Source: Bacteroidales bacterium | GTDB lineage: Bacteria; Bacteroidota; Bacteroidia; Bacteroidales; B18-G4 | DNA length: 64,000 nt | Direction: 5' to 3' | Assembly (NCBI GenBank): GCA_018400295.1 | Contig: JAGYMZ010000006.1 | Span: 1 to 64,000 of the forward strand | Shown: piece by piece, positions 10,140 through 53,563 of the stretch | How positions within the stretch are numbered: position 1 is the first letter of the stretch | Layout: the number at the start of each line of letters is the position of its first letter | Program-made: the position numbers and the translations under genes | The notes under the pieces: model-generated | The model's input: the letters and a program-made list of their open reading frames with translations, nothing else | What the model was told of the DNA's origin: nothing | Database searches by the model: none

Positions 10140-11480
10140 ATGAAAAAAAGAATTTTACTATCAGGACTGGCGTTTATGGTTTTTTCCTTTGCCGGGTTTG
10201 GCCAGCATTGTGTGGACTTTAATTCCCTGAACCCGGGCGACCAGTACGGGGACGGGATCAATGCCGTGGGCGAAGTGATCTTCACCGAGAGCGACATCCC
10301 GGTTTCCGTTGAGTATTTTGAATGGAATACCGGGGGCACATTCGGAACGGCCACCGTCAACAACCCTTCGGGTTTTGGTTCCGGGAATGTCATGTGGACC
10401 AGCAACATCAATTTGCGCTTCGATTTTACGCAGCTGTCCTATCCGGTCACCAAGGTTACATTCATTTACGCGGATTACGGCGGCTTTGAGAATTTTTCGG
10501 TGAACGGGCATCCGATCTACGTCGGCGAGCTGGAAAACATCCCCGCTTTCCCGGACGTGAGCATCAGCCATGCCGGTACGGCCAACGGGGGAATGGTCAC
10601 CATTTACGGGCCGGTGGATGAGCTCATCGTCGGGGGACAGGAATTTGAACTGGATGATATTTGCACTTTTGAGGTGGGCTCCGATTGTGTGGATTTCGAG
10701 TCCCAGACCCTGGGCAAGGAATACGGCGACGGGTTCAATGCGGTTGGTGAGGTGGTCTTTGCCGAGTCCGGGATCCCCGTGGCGGTGGAATATTTCTACT
10801 GGAACACCGGTGGCACCTTCGGCGTTTGTGAGATCTACAATGCCATGCCCGATTTCGGGGACGGCCAGATCATGGGTATGAACAACATCAACCTCAAGTT
10901 TGATTTCACCCAGCTGGGTTTCCAGGTCTCGGAAGTAACCTTTGAATATGCCGACCAGGGAGGTCACGAGAACTTTTCCGTGAACGGTGGCCCGGTCTAT
11001 GTCGGGGAACTCACCGCCGCCCCCAGTCCGCCGGGGATCACCATGTCGGTGACCACCACTTCTTTTTCCGGCGGGGAAAAGGGCCTGGTTTCCCTGATGG
11101 GTCCCGTGGATACCCTATTGGTCGGCGGACAGGAATTCTGGCTGGATAACATCTGCGTCTATTTCATGGTGGATATGGAAGAAAACCCGGAAGCAGCCGC
11201 ATCCGTTGTTCAACTGGGCCAGAATTACCCGAACCCGGTTGTTTCTGAAACCCTGATCCCCTTCCGGATGAAAGAACCACAAAAGGTCACCCTGGAGATA
11301 TTCAACAACATGGGCCAGAAGGTCCGGACCCTGTTCGAAGGCTTAAGTCCTTCCGGCGCCCACGAAATGCTCTGGAACGGGAAAGATCAACACGGCAACC
11401 CGGTCCCCGCCGGCATTTACCTGTATTCCCTGAAGACCCGCAATTTTTCCCGGATCCGGAAAATGATCGTCCTGGATTGA
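10140..11480 (+). CDS. Secreted protein with two tandem copies of an unknown domain and a T9SS/FlgD-like C-terminus
   Basis: 446 residues with a signal peptide (residues 1-22). Residues ~24-178 and ~183-342 are two copies of the same ~155-residue domain: each begins CVDF, then YGDG-x-NAVGEV, an EYF-WNTGGTFG block, FDFTQL, ENFSVNG-P-YVGEL and a closing GPVD-L-VGGQEF. The beta-rich pattern suggests a jelly-roll or carbohydrate-binding-like fold; I do not recognise a named family. Residues ~360-446 (LGQNYPNPV ... WNGKDQHGNPVPAGIYLYSL ... KMIVLD) are a FlgD-Ig-like type A T9SS sorting domain. A GGAGG ribosome site lies 4 nt before the start. It should be an abundant secreted or surface protein; ligand unknown. 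Confidence 0.82.
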   Translation: MKKRILLSGLAFMVFSFAGFGQHCVDFNSLNPGDQYGDGINAVGEVIFTESDIPVSVEYFEWNTGGTFGTATVNNPSGFGSGNVMWTSNINLRFDFTQLSYPVTKVTFIYADYGGFENFSVNGHPIYVGELENIPAFPDVSISHAGTANGGMVTIYGPVDELIVGGQEFELDDICTFEVGSDCVDFESQTLGKEYGDGFNAVGEVVFAESGIPVAVEYFYWNTGGTFGVCEIYNAMPDFGDGQIMGMNNINLKFDFTQLGFQVSEVTFEYADQGGHENFSVNGGPVYVGELTAAPSPPGITMSVTTTSFSGGEKGLVSLMGPVDTLLVGGQEFWLDNICVYFMVDMEENPEAAASVVQLGQNYPNPVVSETLIPFRMKEPQKVTLEIFNNMGQKVRTLFEGLSPSGAHEMLWNGKDQHGNPVPAGIYLYSLKTRNFSRIRKMIVLD

Positions 11481-44418: not shown

Positions 44419-44449
44419 AGCTCCCTTCGTTTTGAGGGGGGCTTTTTTT
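44419..44449 (+). terminator. Rho-independent terminator of gdhA
   Basis: A G/C-rich stem, AGCTCCCTTC (44419-44428) against GAGGGGGGCT (44434-44443) with wobble pairs, then a T-run to 44449. It touches the stop codon of the convergent SGNH gene. Confidence 0.8.
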
Positions 44450-44978
44450 ATAAATAATCCCTGATGAGGGAAGCCCAGTGGCTGTATCCTTTTTCAGTCA
44501 GGTGTCCGCCGTCGTAAGTATATTCCTTTCTTAACTGTTTTCCATCAAGAAAAGATACAAACAGATCAACATAGGTATGCTTATAATGGCGGCACATTTT
44601 TTTTAACGAACGGTTCAGCTTTCGTATCTTTTTGTTGATCCCCGAGCCCATGATCATGTCTTCGTTTACCGGGAGGATGCTTTGCACGACCAGGGTTGTG
44701 CCGGGAGAACGGTCACGGATGGTCACGAGAATATCTTCGTGGTTCAATGTGATCTCTTTTGGTTTCATGCCCTGGAACAGGTCGTTCAAACCGATCATAA
44801 GCAGGATTTTGGCCGGATGTCCGGATGTCACATCCCTTAAACGGTAAAGGACCCCATGGGTTGTATCTCCGGCAACCCCCTCGTTGATGAGATCCCGGTC
44901 GGGGAAATGCTTGTCCAGGTCGAACCATTCCGTGAGGCTGTCCCCGAGAAATACGATGCTTGACGTATCGATCTTCAT
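44448..44978 (-). CDS. SGNH/GDSL hydrolase
   Basis: 176 residues. Block I VFLGDSLTEW (nucleophile Ser), block II Gly in VAGDTTHG, block III G-L-N-D and block V Asp/His in DGGHLTEKGY are all present, so it should be an active esterase or acylhydrolase. No signal peptide. It lies downstream of amrS on the same strand with a 78-nt gap that includes a short palindrome. Confidence 0.9.
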   Translation of the reverse strand: MKIDTSSIVFLGDSLTEWFDLDKHFPDRDLINEGVAGDTTHGVLYRLRDVTSGHPAKILLMIGLNDLFQGMKPKEITLNHEDILVTIRDRSPGTTLVVQSILPVNEDMIMGSGINKKIRKLNRSLKKMCRHYKHTYVDLFVSFLDGKQLRKEYTYDGGHLTEKGYSHWASLIRDYL

Positions 44979-45056: not shown

Positions 45057-46190
45057 TCATTCCCAAACCCCGGCAATGGGTTCGTTGCAGAAAGCACAGG
45101 CACCGTTCTTTATGTTGTTTTCCGCAAGCCGGTATCCCATTCTTTTGATCAGCATTTTGTTGCAGGACGGGCAAATGGTATTTTCATGGCCCGCTCCGGG
45201 GGCATTGCCAATATATGCATAATGAAGCCCTGCTTTCCGGGCTGTTTCATGGGCTTTTAACAAGGTGTCGGTGGGTGTGGGGGGCAGGTTTTTGAGTTTG
45301 TACATGGGTTGAAACCTGCTAAAATGCAGCGGGGTGTCCTGAAAGCCATTGTCAACAAGCCAGTCGCACATTTTTTTGATCAAATCCATATCATCGGTCC
45401 AGGAAGGGACGATCAGGTTTGTGATCTCCAGCCATACCCCTTCTTCTTTCAATATTTTAAGGGTCCGCAGTACCGGGTCAAGCGTCCCGGCGTTGAGCAT
45501 TTCGTAAACCTCGTTGCTGAAACTTTTCAGGTCGATGTTGGCAGCATCGAGTTTCGGGCAAATTTCCCTGAGGGGCTTTTCATTGATATACCCTGCAGAG
45601 ATGAAAATGTTCCGTACCCCTTCTTTATGTGCTATGGTTGCTGTGTCGTAAGTGTAATCATAAAAGGCAATGGGTTCGGCGTACGTGTATGCAATGGAAT
45701 CGCACCCGTGCTTTATACATTCCTTTACGGCCCTGGCGGGCATAAGGTCGTAGTTCCTTGTTTCTGTTGGGCTGGCCTGGGAAATGGTCCAGTTCTGGCA
45801 ATTCAGGCAGGCCAGGTTGCAACCGGCGATGGCCAGTGAATAAGTTTTGCTGGCGGGGAGGAAATGGTACAGGGGTTTCTTTTCTATGGGGTCGATATGG
45901 AGGGCACAGGGGTTGCCGTAAGCCAAAGTATACAATTCCCCGTCCTTGTTTATCCGTGTGCGGCAATCCCCGGTTTCACCGTTGTCCAGTTCGCATGCCT
46001 GAGGGCAAAGCTTGCATTTCACTCCCCTCGGTGTGGTGATGTAATGCATGGCTTTCCTGGTGTAGGGTTCATTGTTGTTTTCAGCAAGAGATGACAAAAA
46101 CCGGGTTGCGGCCGGGGCGGTCCGGCCGATGCCCACGGCAAATCCGCAAGCTGCACAAATGCTGTATTTTAGAAATGTCCTTTTATCCAT
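45057..46190 (-). CDS. amrS: AmmeMemoRadiSam system radical SAM enzyme with Tat-like N-terminus
   Basis: 377 residues. Radical SAM motif C124-x3-C128-x2-C131 (GCNLACLNCQNW), preceded by an N-terminal Cys cluster (KCKLCPQAC, C59/C62/C66, and C76) and followed by C-terminal CPSC and CAFC pairs. All this fits the AmrS family. The first ~35 residues (D-K-R-T-F-L-K then CAACGFAVGIG and an A-rich stretch) resemble a Tat signal with K-R instead of R-R. Export of a radical SAM enzyme would be unusual; it could also be an uncleaved anchor. It is followed upstream on the same strand by the membrane aminopropyltransferase-like gene with a 16-nt gap. Function of the system is not established. Confidence 0.88.
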   Translation of the reverse strand: MDKRTFLKYSICAACGFAVGIGRTAPAATRFLSSLAENNNEPYTRKAMHYITTPRGVKCKLCPQACELDNGETGDCRTRINKDGELYTLAYGNPCALHIDPIEKKPLYHFLPASKTYSLAIAGCNLACLNCQNWTISQASPTETRNYDLMPARAVKECIKHGCDSIAYTYAEPIAFYDYTYDTATIAHKEGVRNIFISAGYINEKPLREICPKLDAANIDLKSFSNEVYEMLNAGTLDPVLRTLKILKEEGVWLEITNLIVPSWTDDMDLIKKMCDWLVDNGFQDTPLHFSRFQPMYKLKNLPPTPTDTLLKAHETARKAGLHYAYIGNAPGAGHENTICPSCNKMLIKRMGYRLAENNIKNGACAFCNEPIAGVWE

Positions 46191-46206
46191 ATGTTGTTCC
46201 TGAGGG

Positions 46207-48363
46207 TTAGCCTAAAAGTACAAATTCTTTCCGGGATAGCCAAACATGCAAAATGGCCAGGATGTTAAGGCCGGCCAACAGCATGCAGGACCACCAGATG
46301 CCAAGCATCGGTACCAGTATCATGGCGGAAATGAGGGACCCGGCTGCGGATCCCAGCAGGTCAATGCTGTATGCGCTGGAAACCGACCTGATCCCGGGGA
46401 TCTTTGCCAGCCCGGAGGCGTTGGAAAATTGTATTCCTGTCAGAATGCCCGCTGCGATGGCCAGAAGGACAAAAAGAATACTTGAAAGGGTAATGCCTGC
46501 ATTCCAACGATTGACGAGATAGAGCGTGACCGGCAGCAGCAGGCTGAGTACCACCAGGGCCGACTGATACCGGAGGTAGTTGCTTTTGCTGACTGTGATC
46601 CGGGGGGATAAGATCGTGGCACCCAGGGCAATGCCTGCCATGAAAAAGGTGATGAGAATGGCGGAGAAGTAATAGATGAAACCAAAAATCACCTGAAAAG
46701 CAATAATGATCATGAACTCCAAAGATGCACCTGTAAAGCCGGTGACAAACAAAGCCCTGTTTACACGGTTGCTGATGAACAGTGCCAGCAAACTGAGAAT
46801 GACCGGGATAAGGATAAAGGCATACGGCCCTGTGCGGAAATGACTGAGCCATATTGCGATCTGTAAATAATAAGCAATGGGCCTGAAATCTGTGTTGATC
46901 CCTGAAACGTTCCCGCTTTCCAGGGTTTCCCGTAACAGGGAACTTCTCATGTCAAGGAGTGCGTCATCAATATAACCGGCGTTGACATACACCGTTTGTA
47001 TTCCCCGGGAAATCAATGAATCAGTGATGGCAACATGCAGGGAGCTTTGGGATGCAAGGTAATAATCCTGCTGCCCGGGAAGGATCAGAAGATGCTCGAA
47101 AGTATTATCCAGTGTGTTGTATATGGTCCCGTGAAGAAGCTGGGTTTTTTCGCTCATGTAATTTCCGGATGAAGAAAGATGGAAGGAGAATACCCCATCT
47201 GCCGTGAGCCGCTCTTTTATGCCGGTGAAAAACTCCCGGGTGTAAAACCGGTTGAGCTGGGCATTCAGTGGATCGGGCAGGTCTGCAATGATGATATCAT
47301 ATGCCCTGTTGCCCTGCCTCAGAAATAACCTGCCGTCTTCCCGGAAAATATGAACGCGGGGATCCTGCAATTCTTTTTTATATTTCAGTGCTTCTGTGAT
47401 CAGCACCGGGTTTATCTCCACATAATCAATTCTTTCCGCATCCGGATATTTCAAAATTTCTGCCACGGTCCCGGATATTCCCCCCGAGATCAACAATATC
47501 TGCTGTGGATCGGTATGTTGAGACAACGTGAAATGGACCAGTTCTTCGGCCCCTTGCTTTTCGCTTTCGCTGAACAATAAGTTGGCATTTTCGTAAAAGT
47601 TGATTTGCCCCGCAGTACTGGTAATATCAATTTTCCCGTAAGGGGTCTCTGACGATTGCAACAAGTCCTGTGCGGGGAAAATGCGTTGACGCAATTGCAT
47701 TTGACCTCCGGAAAAGAAGAACCAGGAAAACAGGATCAGTCCGGGTATGCTGAACAGAACGGCTTTCCATTTTTTGTGCGTTAAGGACAGGATGTAGGAG
47801 ATGATCAGTATGTTGGCAAGAAAAAGGATGAGTGCCGTCTGAACAGAACTCAGGTAAAACACGAACAGGAAACTGGTCAGCAGGCCTCCGGCCAGACTGC
47901 CTGCTCCTTCGATGCCGTACATTTTTCCCGCTGCATTGGACATTCCGGTGTGCCTGGCATTCTCGGACAAAAAGGGAAATAATAATCCTGAGCTGATGCA
48001 AAACGGGGCCAGGACCACCAGGGAAAATACCCATATCTGCAGCGGGCTGAGCATCAATCCGGGAGGGAAATATTGCTGGCGGATCACATAGACGCTGACA
48101 ATGGCTGCTATGGGAAATATGGCCAACAAAGCGATCAGGAAGGATGCCCTGCTTGGCCCGCGGTCCCGCAAATGGAAAAGCCGGCTGGCGATGGCGCCGG
48201 CACCGGTAAGCAACATCCAGTTGGTAAGGATGACCCCAACGACAAGTTCATTGCCGTTCAATACCGACAAAAATTCGCGCAGCAGGATCAGTTGGGTGGT
48301 CAGGCCCGTAAATCCGAGGGTTATGCAAGCGGTAAAAATTGCCCTTTTATTTGTGTCTGTCAT
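46207..48363 (-). CDS. Membrane protein with internal spermidine-synthase-like domain
   Basis: 718 residues. About seven hydrophobic helices (residues 8-225), a soluble domain at ~235-480, then ~seven more helices to the end. The soluble domain has the SAM-binding Rossmann motifs of polyamine synthases: ILLISGGISGTVAEIL, VEINP, EDGRLFLRQ and YDIIIADLPDP, the last keeping the D-x-P-D-P of the aminopropyl-transfer site. Fused membrane/spermidine-synthase proteins are widespread, but their substrate is unknown. Its position between amrS and the Memo-AMMECR1 gene suggests it belongs to the same system. Start chosen is the only plausible one, 45 nt from the divergent gene. Confidence 0.85.
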   Translation of the reverse strand: MTDTNKRAIFTACITLGFTGLTTQLILLREFLSVLNGNELVVGVILTNWMLLTGAGAIASRLFHLRDRGPSRASFLIALLAIFPIAAIVSVYVIRQQYFPPGLMLSPLQIWVFSLVVLAPFCISSGLLFPFLSENARHTGMSNAAGKMYGIEGAGSLAGGLLTSFLFVFYLSSVQTALILFLANILIISYILSLTHKKWKAVLFSIPGLILFSWFFFSGGQMQLRQRIFPAQDLLQSSETPYGKIDITSTAGQINFYENANLLFSESEKQGAEELVHFTLSQHTDPQQILLISGGISGTVAEILKYPDAERIDYVEINPVLITEALKYKKELQDPRVHIFREDGRLFLRQGNRAYDIIIADLPDPLNAQLNRFYTREFFTGIKERLTADGVFSFHLSSSGNYMSEKTQLLHGTIYNTLDNTFEHLLILPGQQDYYLASQSSLHVAITDSLISRGIQTVYVNAGYIDDALLDMRSSLLRETLESGNVSGINTDFRPIAYYLQIAIWLSHFRTGPYAFILIPVILSLLALFISNRVNRALFVTGFTGASLEFMIIIAFQVIFGFIYYFSAILITFFMAGIALGATILSPRITVSKSNYLRYQSALVVLSLLLPVTLYLVNRWNAGITLSSILFVLLAIAAGILTGIQFSNASGLAKIPGIRSVSSAYSIDLLGSAAGSLISAMILVPMLGIWWSCMLLAGLNILAILHVWLSRKEFVLLG

Positions 48364-48408
48364 TTATTATCTTTGTTAATAATATCTTTCACACGAATAT
48401 AAGCATTT

Positions 48409-49929
48409 ATGAACATTACAAAATATCCGGTCCATATGTTGATTTCACTGATCATGTTTTCAGGAAACGCTTTTTCACAGGAGGATGGTGCCCAGGGTAC
48501 CATTGACAGGCAACCTTATGCGGCAGGGAGGTTCTATGAAGATGACCCCGGGGCCCTGAAAGAAAACCTGAGATCCCTGTTCGAAAAGGCGGAATCTAAA
48601 AAGTTCGATAAGGTTGCAGCCGTGATTTCCCCCCATGCCGGATATCCGTTCTCCGGTGAAGTGGCCGCCTCGGTGTTTAACCAGTTGGATAAAGAAAAGC
48701 AGTATGACCGCATATTTATCCTGGCATCCAGTCACAGCATGTCTTTCAGTGGGGCATCCATATACAGTGCCGGGAATTATATTACACCCCTGGGTGAAGT
48801 CCCGGTGGACCTGGACCTGGCAAAAAAGCTTACGGAAGAACATGACATCTTCACCTTCCGCAGGGATGCCCATACACATGAGCACAGTCTGGAAGTGCAG
48901 CTCCCTTTCCTGCAGTACATACTGGAACATCCTTTTAAGCTTGTTCCGGTATTGGTGGGTACCCGCAATACCGGCGATTGCAAAAAGATCGCCGAAGCGC
49001 TGCAGCCTTACCTGGGCGGAGATGATCTTTTTGTGGTCAGCACGGATTTTTCTCATTATCCGGCTTATGAAGATGCGAAAATGATTGATGAAGCCACTGC
49101 CAATGCCATCGTTTCCATGTCGCCGGAAGCATTGCAGAAGGTCCTGCAGGAGAATGACCGGAAAGGCATTTCAAACCTCGCAACCAGCCTCTGTGGATGG
49201 AGTTCCGTTTACAGTTTGCTGTATATGATCAACGATAGCCCCGGGTATTCCGTTCAAAAGGTCAAATACATGAATTCCGGTGATGCCCGCTTCTACGGGG
49301 ATAAAAGCAGGGTGGTGGGTTATTACGGACTTGTGGTCACCGGGGAAGGAACGCAAAAAAAAAATGACTTCCGGCTCTCGGAAAAAGGGAAAGCGCAATT
49401 GATGCACATAGCCAGAAAAACGCTCGGTGAATTTATCCACAAAGGAACCCTCCCTGATTTTGACGAGAAAAAACTTGCTCCGGAATTGCTCAGAGAATGC
49501 GGCGCTTTTGTGACCCTGGAAAAGGAAGGGAATTTGCGGGGATGCATCGGACGCTTCCAGGTTGACAAACCCTTGTATCTTGTTGTCAGGGATATGACGG
49601 TTTCCGCTTCAACACAGGATTATCGCTTCCCGCGTGTTACACCGGAGGAGGTTGGCGAACTTGACATCGAGATATCCGTTTTAACCCCTTTGCGCAAGAT
49701 CCAAGATATTGAGGAGATCGAAATGGGCAGGCACGGGATCTATATAAAAAAGGGCACGGCTTCCGGTACTTTTTTGCCCCAGGTTGCCCAAAAAACCGGT
49801 TGGTCGCGCGAAGAATTCCTGGGCCATTGCGCTGAAGATAAGGCCCGGATAGGTTGGGATGGCTGGAAAGATGCCGATGTGTTCGTTTATGAAGCCATCA
49901 TATTTTCGGAGGATGAAACCCCGGAGTGA
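48409..49929 (+). CDS. Exported Memo-AMMECR1 fusion (AmmeMemoRadiSam proteins B and A)
   Basis: 506 residues. Signal peptide residues 1-24 (MLISLIMFSGNAFSQ). Memo domain ~33-310 with the metal-ligand equivalents of human MEMO1: H76 (SPHAGY), H109 (SSHS), H217 (DFSHY) and C263 (SLCGW). AMMECR1 domain ~325-500 with L-R-G-C-I-G near residue 378 and DIEISVLTPL. The fusion joins two thirds of the AmmeMemoRadiSam system in one protein and should act in the periplasm or at the membrane. A -7-like TATCTTTG is at 48368-48375 but its -33 box is unclear. Divergent from the membrane synthase-like gene, ends 6 nt before a convergent hydrolase gene. Confidence 0.9.
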   Translation: MNITKYPVHMLISLIMFSGNAFSQEDGAQGTIDRQPYAAGRFYEDDPGALKENLRSLFEKAESKKFDKVAAVISPHAGYPFSGEVAASVFNQLDKEKQYDRIFILASSHSMSFSGASIYSAGNYITPLGEVPVDLDLAKKLTEEHDIFTFRRDAHTHEHSLEVQLPFLQYILEHPFKLVPVLVGTRNTGDCKKIAEALQPYLGGDDLFVVSTDFSHYPAYEDAKMIDEATANAIVSMSPEALQKVLQENDRKGISNLATSLCGWSSVYSLLYMINDSPGYSVQKVKYMNSGDARFYGDKSRVVGYYGLVVTGEGTQKKNDFRLSEKGKAQLMHIARKTLGEFIHKGTLPDFDEKKLAPELLRECGAFVTLEKEGNLRGCIGRFQVDKPLYLVVRDMTVSASTQDYRFPRVTPEEVGELDIEISVLTPLRKIQDIEEIEMGRHGIYIKKGTASGTFLPQVAQKTGWSREEFLGHCAEDKARIGWDGWKDADVFVYEAIIFSEDETPE

Positions 49930-49935
49930 TCTTTG

Positions 49936-50727
49936 CTAAAGGAAATAATCCAGCACTTCCCTGACAAATTCGCCGGGATATTCGGCATGAATGGAGTGCC
50001 CCGCTCCGGGAATGATCGCCATTTCTTCAACCCCGGGCATTTCTTTCAGTTTTTCAGTTTCATCCGGGTATACCAGTATGTCGCGGCTGCCGGAGATGAG
50101 CTTGGTTGGTGTGTGAATGTCTTTAATGAGATCACCGGAATCAAAGCTGACCAATGCATCTATCTGGGCTTTGAAATTTTCCGGACTCTGCGTATATGGA
50201 TAACATACGGTGGAAATGATGGCTGCATCCAAAAAACGGGGATTGCTGAAGGCTTTGGGACTGAAAAGCCAGTAAAACAGGTTGCGCAGCCATTGTTCCT
50301 GCGATAATCCGTCTTTCCAGGAAGTGATCAGAAAATCAAACAGGGATTTGTTGCGGTCCGACATATGCGTGGTAGCACTGGCCAGGATCATTTTCTGTAT
50401 CCGTAAAGGATGGTGCAGGGCTAAAAGCTGTGACACACCGCCGCCCATGGAATGACCGATCAGAAAGCATTTTTCAATATTCATTTCATCCAGCAAGGCG
50501 ATGCAATCCCGGCTAAGATCGGCCATCCCAAAGGAGGCGCTTTTGGCTTTGGTCCGTCCTGAGCCACGGTTATCCCAGATCAGTACCCGGAAATGCTTTT
50601 GGATGTCTTTTAGTATGAACTGCCAGCTCTGATGGTCGCTGCCCAGTCCGGCGATCATGGCCAGCCAGGGCCCCTCGCCCCGGACATCATAATAAATGGT
50701 AGCCTCCCTGGTTTTTAAATATGGCAT
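49936..50727 (-). CDS. Alpha/beta-fold hydrolase
   Basis: 263 residues from the ATG at 50727; this start leaves 10 nt to the preceding nuclease gene, and the longer frame would overlap it. Nucleophile S93 in G-H-S-M-G-G, acid in GSRDILVYPDE and His in GAGHSIHAEYP. Typical of esterases, lactonases or C-C hydrolases with a short lid. Substrate unknown. It may be cotranscribed with the AddB-type gene. Confidence 0.88.
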   Translation of the reverse strand: MPYLKTREATIYYDVRGEGPWLAMIAGLGSDHQSWQFILKDIQKHFRVLIWDNRGSGRTKAKSASFGMADLSRDCIALLDEMNIEKCFLIGHSMGGGVSQLLALHHPLRIQKMILASATTHMSDRNKSLFDFLITSWKDGLSQEQWLRNLFYWLFSPKAFSNPRFLDAAIISTVCYPYTQSPENFKAQIDALVSFDSGDLIKDIHTPTKLISGSRDILVYPDETEKLKEMPGVEEMAIIPGAGHSIHAEYPGEFVREVLDYFL

Positions 50728-50737
50728 GGGCTTGTTT

Positions 50738-53563
50738 TTACCTGTTGCAAATATCTTTAAAATTACACCACGCACACCGGGCAACATCACTGGTTTGAAA
50801 AAATGTCCCCGACGGATCCAGCATGTCACGAACGGTCCCGGCCAGGCCTTCTCCGGTTCGGTCTGTCAGCTGCTGACCTATGTCCCGGCTGCCTTCCACG
50901 ACCAGTGGCACCAATCCCTGGCTGATCTTTCGCAGGGACAGGTTGCAGGCCGTGACCGGATGCCGGGGCTCCGTGCCCCGGAAGATCCATGCATACAACA
51001 ACAACTGTAAGGCTTTGGATTTCCGGGGGTCTTCGAAGAGGGCATCAGTATCCTTGACGTTGAGGGTCCGGGGGACCACATTCCCGGTTTTATAATCAAT
51101 GATCCGGTAGGAATCACCGATTTTGTCGATCCGGTCTATGCCTCCCTTGAAAAGGACCTCTTTGCCATTGATGTGCATGCGGCGGCGGTAAAATTTTTCA
51201 AGGGCATAAATCTGGCGTTTCTCCATTCCCGGTTCTTTCGTAAGGCTTGATTCAAAACGGAGGGCGTTTTTGATAAGGTTCAGGGCCACATGATATATGA
51301 GCAGGTTTTTTCCGTACCGGACGTCCCCTCCGGGGTAAATATCATGCAAAGCCTGGTCGAGCGCCTGTTTAATGCGTTGTTCCGGGATGCGGGACTCCGG
51401 GGAACGGCCCAGATACGGGGCATACAATGTGTTCAGGGATTTGTGTACCAGGCTTCCCAGCAGGGCGGCATCCATGCTTTCCGTGACTTCTTCCCTTTCT
51501 TTTATGCCAAGGATGTATGTGAAATAAAACTGCAGGCTGCAATGAATGTATGTGGCCAATGAGCTGGGTGATAATCCATTTTCCAGTACATTCGCAAGGG
51601 TTTTGAGAATTTGGGGTGTTTTGGCGATCTCTATCTGACCGTAAGTGGATCTTCCGGTTACCGGAAATACAGCCAGTTCATGCCTGATGTTTATCCGGGG
51701 GTTTGCGTTCGGCAATTCGGTTTCCAGTTGCGTCAGGAAACGGCTTTTTTCGCCACTGCCGGCTTCATCCGGCTCGGTGTGATAAATAAAAACTGCTTCT
51801 TTCGTACGCTGAAGCAGGTGGTAAAAATGATGGGCGAACAGGGCATTTTTTTCTTTGCGGGCAGGTAGGTGGAACCGCGACCTGATGTCATAAGGGATAA
51901 AGGAATGCTGGCTTTTGCCTTCCGGAAGAATGCCTTCGTTTGCGGATAGTACGACAACCCTCTCGAAATCCAGGGTCCGGGATTCCAGCATGCCCATAAC
52001 CTGTAAACCCCTGAGGGGCTCCCCATAAAACGGAATGGTGGAAAAACCGATCACCTTATAGAACAGGGAGTGAAAAGTCTTGAGGTTAAATTCCTCATCA
52101 TTTAAGTAGGGCCAGATCTTATTGATGTACTTGTTCAAATGGAACAGGTATTCAATATCGAGGTCCTTTGGTGCATCGGGGTTGTCCCGGTTCTGAAGGA
52201 TGAGCCGGTCCCTGAGGCTTTCTACCATGGCTTTGATCTTTGCGGCCAGTTCCGGGAAGCTCCCCGGGAGGTCAAAGAGCATGTCCAACCAGGAATTGTT
52301 TTCATTTTCCGGGCCCGCCAGGCTTTTTAATTCGGGAGGTGTAAAATAAAAACGGTTGCCTGTCAGCAATTCTTCCGATATTTTCCTGGCCTGCCCTCCG
52401 TTTGACAGCGCATGGGAATACGTGTGCTGCAGCAGGATCAGTACATCGTTTTTGTGATACACGGGGTTTTCCTGTTGGGCCTGAACCATAAAATACCCTG
52501 CCCTTTCGATCATGTTTATCCAGGCATCGAAAAAAGAGAAAGCGGGGGTGAAGCGGAAGGGATAACCCATGGTGACGTTGAAGTTTCCAACATTGCCGGG
52601 TATGGAATTCAGCACCGGGATCAACAGTTGTTCGTCAGGCAGGATCACGGCATCCATTTTTCCTGCCCCCTGCTTGTGGGTTTCTCCCCATTCCTGCAAT
52701 ACCTTTCCTGCGACCTTGGCCTGGTTGGATTTGCTGGGCGTGCCGATGATGCGAATATCCTTGGGGTTTGCGGTCAGGTGATCAAAAGCCCATTTGAATG
52801 CTCCCTGTTTTGACTGTTTCCTGAACTGCCGCATGAAAAGACCGGCTTCCTGTGCCGTATCGTTGAGATAATACGCATCAGCATCCCAAAAAATTTCAGC
52901 GATGGATTCAGCGCTGAGATGATCTGTGATGATTTTTTCGGACGGTGTCAGCGCATTGAAGCCTGCAAAAACAACCTTTTCCCAGGCCAGGTTTTTTGTC
53001 AGCTTATGGATGTTTTCCGCTGCCTCGCGGCGGGCCATGCCCTGGTAGGCAAGGTGGTCTTTTTTCAACATTTCCCGGAACGCATGATAATACCGGATAA
53101 GGGAACGGAAAAAGGCAAGATATTTTTTCTGGAATTCGCTCAGGGGCTCTCCTCCCGGATTCCAGACATTGATGGCCTTGGCTTCGGTGAGAAAACCAAA
53201 CAGTTCACCGGCCGGGACCATATAGGCATCGATGTCGTTGAGGTCTGATAACAAGACGGGCGACCAGGAAAGGAAGTCTTGCAGACTGTCTGCTTTGTCA
53301 CCTTCCAATTGCCGGTGTACCTCATATAAAATAAAGGTTTGGTGTATGTTGTCGATGATGCGGTTTCCGCTGATCCGCTCGATGAAGTCTTCGATCGACA
53401 GGTATTCGGGGGAAAAGATGGGGGTGCTGATCAGTCTGGCCAGGTTTTCTTTGAGGAACAGGCCGGAACGTTTGTTCGGTAATACGATGCACAATTTATC
53501 CAGGCGGTCCTGATGTTTGTCAAGGACCTCTTCCGCTAACATTTCCAAAAAGGGTTTTATCAT
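50738..53563 (-). CDS. AddB-type iron-sulfur PD-(D/E)XK nuclease, RecB-family
   Basis: 941 residues. The C-terminal nuclease domain has G-G-I-D-R-I-D ... Y-R-I-I-D-Y-K-T-G. An iron-sulfur staple is formed by C675 and C930-x2-C933-x5-C939, exactly the AddB spacing. The N-terminal part has an inactivated helicase-like fold (VLPNKRSGLFLKENLARL, no proper Walker A). AddB pairs with the helicase-nuclease AddA to process double-strand breaks, but no AddA/UvrD-type gene is in the window. Its upstream neighbour, 5 nt away, is the MurU-like gene. Confidence 0.9.
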   Translation of the reverse strand: MIKPFLEMLAEEVLDKHQDRLDKLCIVLPNKRSGLFLKENLARLISTPIFSPEYLSIEDFIERISGNRIIDNIHQTFILYEVHRQLEGDKADSLQDFLSWSPVLLSDLNDIDAYMVPAGELFGFLTEAKAINVWNPGGEPLSEFQKKYLAFFRSLIRYYHAFREMLKKDHLAYQGMARREAAENIHKLTKNLAWEKVVFAGFNALTPSEKIITDHLSAESIAEIFWDADAYYLNDTAQEAGLFMRQFRKQSKQGAFKWAFDHLTANPKDIRIIGTPSKSNQAKVAGKVLQEWGETHKQGAGKMDAVILPDEQLLIPVLNSIPGNVGNFNVTMGYPFRFTPAFSFFDAWINMIERAGYFMVQAQQENPVYHKNDVLILLQHTYSHALSNGGQARKISEELLTGNRFYFTPPELKSLAGPENENNSWLDMLFDLPGSFPELAAKIKAMVESLRDRLILQNRDNPDAPKDLDIEYLFHLNKYINKIWPYLNDEEFNLKTFHSLFYKVIGFSTIPFYGEPLRGLQVMGMLESRTLDFERVVVLSANEGILPEGKSQHSFIPYDIRSRFHLPARKEKNALFAHHFYHLLQRTKEAVFIYHTEPDEAGSGEKSRFLTQLETELPNANPRINIRHELAVFPVTGRSTYGQIEIAKTPQILKTLANVLENGLSPSSLATYIHCSLQFYFTYILGIKEREEVTESMDAALLGSLVHKSLNTLYAPYLGRSPESRIPEQRIKQALDQALHDIYPGGDVRYGKNLLIYHVALNLIKNALRFESSLTKEPGMEKRQIYALEKFYRRRMHINGKEVLFKGGIDRIDKIGDSYRIIDYKTGNVVPRTLNVKDTDALFEDPRKSKALQLLLYAWIFRGTEPRHPVTACNLSLRKISQGLVPLVVEGSRDIGQQLTDRTGEGLAGTVRDMLDPSGTFFQTSDVARCAWCNFKDICNR

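Follow-up and report, generated by a model that had tools for sequence, protein, structure and literature searches.

A conserved three-gene variant of the AmmeMemoRadiSam system with predicted export signals in a Bacteroidales genome

Memo and AMMECR1 are proteins related to human disease, and the AmmeMemoRadiSam set, in which both are accompanied by the radical SAM enzyme AmrS, is normally located inside the cell. An exported version would be unusual, because SAM, which the radical-forming enzyme needs, is thought to occur only inside cells. No characterised AmmeMemoRadiSam member with an enzymatic product was found in the literature searched; Memo gene contexts have been surveyed by Burroughs et al. 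2019 (JBC), and that survey may already note the signals or the SpdM linkage described here. In spermidine synthases, the Asp or Glu of the motif GxG(D/E)G binds decarboxylated SAM. Loss of this acid was used by Batth et al. to set apart NHMT, a 7-TM methyltransferase of the fungal endoplasmic reticulum that acts on the N-terminal histidine of LPMO (PMC10349129).

The window, i.e., the whole stretch of 64,000 nucleotides that was analysed, belongs to a genome of 2.63 Mb in 91 contigs (92% complete). All three modules named in the initial annotation were recovered, AmrS as one protein and Memo and AMMECR1 fused in another, together with the membrane protein of 14 helices reported between them. 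The latter is referred to as SpdM, a name coined in the present analysis. The features are as follows.

45057..46190, minus strand: AmrS, AmmeMemoRadiSam radical SAM enzyme, 377 aa (TIGR04337, 349 bits, cut-off 220; PF04055)
46101..46190, minus strand: putative Tat-type signal of AmrS (MDKRTFLKYSICAACGFAVGIG...); R4 and F6 invariant in 59 homologues, [KR]RxF in 78 of 80
45798..45821, minus strand: radical SAM cluster motif C124-x3-C128-x2-C131 of AmrS, invariant in 59 homologues
46207..48363, minus strand: SpdM, 14-TM protein of MFS fold with an inserted spermidine-synthase-like domain, 718 aa (PF01564; AlphaFold2 pLDDT 91.3; VIA-align)
47713..48363, minus strand: TM1-TM7 of SpdM, the N-terminal MFS half plus one extra helix (AlphaFold2 helices; positive-inside count)
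46831..47709, minus strand: spermidine-synthase-like domain of SpdM, predicted to be extracytoplasmic (AlphaFold2, charge count, VIA-align); Asp of GGGDG lost
46210..46830, minus strand: TM8-TM14 of SpdM, one extra helix plus the C-terminal MFS half (AlphaFold2, charge count, VIA-align)
48364..48408, no strand: AT-rich gap of 45 bases between the SpdM-AmrS pair and the divergent Memo-AMMECR1 gene, possibly a divergent promoter (sequence)
48409..49929, plus strand: Memo-AMMECR1 fusion protein, 506 aa (TIGR04336, 242 bits; TIGR04335, 156 bits; PF01875, PF01871)
48409..48480, plus strand: predicted signal peptide of the fusion (MNITKYPVHMLISLIMFSGNAFSQ); hydrophobic N-terminal signal or anchor in 56 of 56 testable homologues
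48508..49344, plus strand: Memo domain with H76, H109, D213, H216 and C262, invariant in 49 homologues and aligned with human MEMO1
49381..49917, plus strand: AMMECR1 domain with the LRGCIG motif (376-381) (PF01871; alignment of 49 homologues)

The genes of SpdM and AmrS are 16 bases apart on one strand, and the fusion gene diverges from that of SpdM. In a scan of the 45-base gap for promoter consensus sequences, promoters were not more frequent than in shuffles. The set is flanked by a GDSL-type hydrolase (44448-44978) and an alpha/beta hydrolase (49936-50829); similar flanking genes are a GDSL-type hydrolase at locus L002 and an alpha/beta hydrolase at locus L010. According to profile searches the fusion is the sole Memo and the sole AMMECR1 protein of the source genome. 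A second AmrS without signal is encoded on another contig (L113:9145-10161, contig C67), next to deaminase-like and kinase-like genes and with Memo and AMMECR1 absent nearby.

AmrS scores well over the family cut-off and carries the CxxxCxxC cysteines, which places it in the AmmeMemoRadiSam system. The survey covered 80 AmrS loci from a scan of GTDB genomes, nearly all of them from Bacteroidota, to which all sampled bacteria belong, and most from Bacteroidales. Cultured organisms are among the carriers, namely Mangrovibacterium marinum DSM 28823 (L036) and Gaoshiqia sediminis (L033). The Tat-like start noted initially in AmrS is general: 78 of the 80 homologues begin with [KR]-R-x-F followed by a hydrophobic residue, usually as S-K-R-x-F-[LI]-K and then a Gly/Ala-rich, weakly hydrophobic stretch. 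AmrS proteins with this N-terminal motif are called signalled below, those lacking it unsignalled. In the source genome the motif has K-R rather than R-R, as in most Bacteroidota members, and R-R is found in divergent and archaeal members. Lysine is tolerated in place of the first arginine of the SufI and TorA signals, and the Tat signal of TtrB has K-R by nature, but K-R signals can export more slowly than R-R signals (PMC1182353). TatC was found in the source genome and in 45 of 50 carrier genomes. With the motif, the weakly hydrophobic stretch and TatC in the genome, AmrS has the sequence features expected of a Tat substrate.

In the fusion protein, Memo and AMMECR1 profiles both exceed their cut-offs within one protein encoded near AmrS, again as in AmmeMemoRadiSam systems. 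The residue set H49/H81/D189/H192/C244 of human MEMO1 (PMC7694686) corresponds to H76, H109, D213, H216 and C262, all five invariant. The Memo ligands had initially been given as H76, H109, H217 and C263; the first two stand, the last two were off by one, and D213 also belongs to the set. In the AMMECR1 motif L376, R377, G378, C379 and G381 are invariant and I380 is nearly so (49 homologues). The signal peptide proposed for the fusion holds up: the N-terminus fits, on our own reading, a signal peptidase I signal with a predicted cleavage between NAFS and Q, and every testable homologue has a hydrophobic signal or anchor, as judged by an ad hoc rule of thumb rather than by SignalP. Most homologues, 39 in number, have a lipobox-like Cys, in contrast to the signal peptidase I-type signal of the source fusion. 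AlphaFold2 modelled the two domains confidently (pLDDT 93), but not their mutual arrangement (pTM 0.66). L179 (genome G337) and L180 (G160) each encode a second Memo protein, 412-432 aa long, in which the Memo domain is preceded by some 65 additional residues or more; these are perhaps another fusion.

One locus of the scan, L065, was labelled Woesearchaeota, and 193 genomes of its DPANN phylum were sampled. Full-length signalled AmrS is encoded in four of these (G333, G362, G416 and G462), each with a second, unsignalled AmrS. TatC exceeds its cut-off in four of the 193 genomes, three of which belong to the signalled-AmrS group, a group fixed before TatC was searched for (P = 1.4e-5). The TatC gene of G333 and of G416 is convergent with the Memo-AMMECR1 gene and abuts it or almost does so; in G462 the distance is 1.1 kb. 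The contig of G362, a fragmented bin, stops 1.8 kb beyond the fusion. The only sampled archaeal genome that has TatC and is limited to unsignalled AmrS is G477 (contig C5:220126-220737). The archaeal fusions keep the Memo ligands, except C262 in G362, and the LRGCIG residues that were checked. An archaeal NAC gene stands beside SpdM on the G416 contig (locus L200), which speaks against a bacterial contaminant in this case. That the archaeal loci stem from contamination, as first suspected for L065, is disfavoured by the number of genomes, the second AmrS in all four and the NAC gene, arguments that cover some of the bins and not all. In the sampled archaea TatC is thus kept almost only along with the apparently exported set, an association that independently supports Tat export of AmrS as predicted from its N-terminus.

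In one alternative, the AmrS N-terminus is an uncleaved anchor or a Tat relic; AmrS would then remain at the cytoplasmic side and cooperate with SpdM through the membrane. In its favour, most members have K-R and not R-R, SAM and the reductant for radical SAM chemistry are found in the cytoplasm, and in genomes G160 and G427 AmrS has no signal while the fusion is signalled or anchored. Against it stand the invariant R and F of the motif, the Gly/Ala-rich stretch that follows as in Tat signals, the R-R of the divergent and archaeal members, and the TatC genes that travel with the archaeal loci. A cytoplasmic AmrS is accordingly considered unlikely, and Tat export of AmrS is preferred.

The AlphaFold2 model of SpdM, built from 53 sequences (pLDDT 91.3, pTM 0.91), backs all 14 helices, of which the last two are merged by DSSP. 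Its membrane part matches MFS structures, namely VMAT2 (8thr, Z 28.4, 344 residues over 1-718), SV2A, FLVCR2 and MFSD10, and the inserted domain matches spermidine synthases (1uir, Z 29.1), the VIA-align comparison covering only chains ranked by Foldseek. The model thus has two six-helix halves that correspond to the MFS fold. Since seven helices precede the synthase-like domain and seven follow it, the domain should lie on the side opposite to the N-terminus. Counts of K+R are 20.5 on the N-terminal side versus 3.8 on the other, and all 53 sequences show this bias. Under the positive-inside rule the N-terminus is then expected inside and the synthase-like domain outside. From charge counts and AlphaFold2 the domain is therefore predicted to face outwards.

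The initial annotation had described SpdM as an aminopropyltransferase-like partner; the spermidine-synthase fold was borne out, but the aminopropyl label was not. A true membrane aminopropyltransferase, producing a polyamine and turning the set into a polyamine-modification system, would agree with the names of the best NCBIfam and PDB matches (spermidine synthase), with D-x-x-D-P being kept in some members including the source and archaeal ones, and with the AdoMet decarboxylase SpeD of one archaeal carrier, G333. That genome is, however, the sole SpeD-positive one among 50 carriers; SpeD (PF02675) is absent from the other 49 and from the 92% complete source genome, and a supply of decarboxylated SAM is thus unlikely. 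The GGGDG Asp is replaced by S297 here, none of 53 members has D or E at this position, and the acceptor-side D361 is N in most. SpdM also scores far below the equivalog cut-offs (TIGR00417, 81 vs 250 bits; NF002010, 108 vs 260; NF002956, 164 vs 472). Because of the lost Asp and the near-complete absence of SpeD, this function is rejected as very improbable, and SpdM is probably no aminopropyltransferase judging from its sequence. Two residues, D343 and the acidic E316 that follows strand 2, are retained, which makes the domain fit a SAM-type nucleoside. It is more likely that SpdM uses or supplies SAM.

SpdM and the fusion were detected at most of the 80 loci, several misses being at contig ends. 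In ten genomes SpdM is not beside AmrS; a full SpdM is encoded elsewhere in seven of them, in several next to the Memo-AMMECR1 gene. The envelope proposal was to fail if most related genomes lacked export signals and a linked membrane synthase gene; the neighbourhood survey found instead signals on AmrS (78 of 80) and on the fusion (56 of 56), and SpdM linked or, in seven of the ten unlinked cases, elsewhere in the genome. Gene order and strand differ between loci while the three genes are retained, which indicates selection on the set rather than an inherited order. No accessory gene beyond the three is common to all loci, and no other family occurs in more than 24. A contrast sample comprised a further 38 AmrS loci from the same phylum, five signalled and 33 unsignalled. 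SpdM lies near five of the five signalled and none of the 33 unsignalled AmrS, with a Fisher P of 2e-6 that serves as a guide only because related sequences are not independent. All five signalled AmrS also have a signalled fusion nearby. [KR]RxF is found in one of the 33, upstream of the likely start. Six genomes hold both AmrS types, namely the source (G000), G039, G078, G120, G259 and G267. In a maximum-likelihood tree the SpdM-adjacent AmrS cluster (6 changes versus 24 in shuffles), but they do not fall cleanly into a single clade, and the tree has several long branches. Most sampled loci come from Bacteroidales, but neighbourhood by accident, or through mere descent inside that order, is scarcely credible given the varied orientation of a set that is kept, its presence in other Bacteroidota families and DPANN archaea, the lack of any other family that recurs at more than 24 loci, and the restriction of SpdM to signalled AmrS. 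As judged from gene content and conservation, AmrS, SpdM and the Memo-AMMECR1 fusion are a distinct, conserved three-gene system.

Mixed states were also recorded. The AmrS at L012:8909-9964 has no signal, and its genome has no SpdM match while the signal of Memo-AMMECR1 is kept; this might be a reversal. L128 (G160) and L201 (G427), where unsignalled AmrS occurs with a signalled or anchored fusion, are intermediate states. Inside the set at L008:5549-5875, L015:4355-4681 and L198:9489-9731 lie genes of small membrane proteins whose similarity to cytochrome b561 or DUF4405 is weak and stays below curated cut-offs. In L200 a gene between AmrS and Memo-AMMECR1 (10366-11034) encodes a Fer4_5 (4Fe-4S) membrane protein, a candidate electron donor. 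These proteins hint at an electron supply.

The envelope location suggested at first is supported by the export signals, the SpdM linkage and the archaeal TatC association, and the set probably represents an extracytoplasmic variant of the AmmeMemoRadiSam system, with export predicted from the signals. AmrS would acquire its Fe-S clusters before leaving the cytoplasm, and Tat would export it in folded form. The fusion may be attached to the envelope or be a free periplasmic protein, and AmrS could act on one envelope substrate jointly with the Memo metal site and the AMMECR1 Cys. SpdM might handle SAM on the outer face: it could be a methyltransferase of this pathway that faces outwards, comparable to NHMT, or it could carry SAM out for use by AmrS. 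The complete scheme is put forward tentatively, as a possibility that we would not yet favour: a radical SAM enzyme that Tat has carried out of the cytoplasm in folded form could obtain SAM from a dedicated MFS-fold transporter with an outward SAM-binding synthase-like domain, and the Memo metal site and the AMMECR1 domain would finish the reaction on a molecule of the envelope. Neither free SAM nor a reductant of low potential is known to occur outside the cytoplasm, which counts against an envelope location, as do the potentially slower export by K-R signals and the unsignalled AmrS of L012, G160 and G427, whose fusions are signalled or anchored. With an envelope-confined version, the substrate of Memo and AMMECR1 would have to be sought outside the membrane. 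Such a version also raises the question whether SAM and radical SAM chemistry operate beyond the cytoplasm at all, and how SAM and electrons would get there.

Among known systems, peptide-processing conflict systems have a radical SAM domain related to that of the Memo-AMMECR1 systems; the parts of their description that were consulted concern an FtsH-associated peptide system and do not mention export (PMC7159879). SpdM exceeds the cut-off of the fused MFS/spermidine synthase family NF037959 (70 vs 40 bits) but stays below that of PRK03612 (164 vs 472) and, unlike both, is part of a conserved unit with AmrS and Memo-AMMECR1. NHMT resembles SpdM in having seven TM helices followed by a spermidine-synthase-like domain without the GxG(D/E)G acid, and it serves secreted proteins; it differs in lacking the seven C-terminal TM helices and a radical SAM or Memo partner, and in having a known substrate. 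With the cytosolic AmmeMemoRadiSam system the present set shares the three families (TIGR04337, TIGR04336 and TIGR04335) and the radical SAM, Memo and LRGCIG motifs. The ordinary copies of the phylum, in contrast, have no signals and no SpdM, and Memo and AMMECR1 are often separate genes. The apparently exported set is thus a new variant of the known, uncharacterised AmmeMemoRadiSam system.
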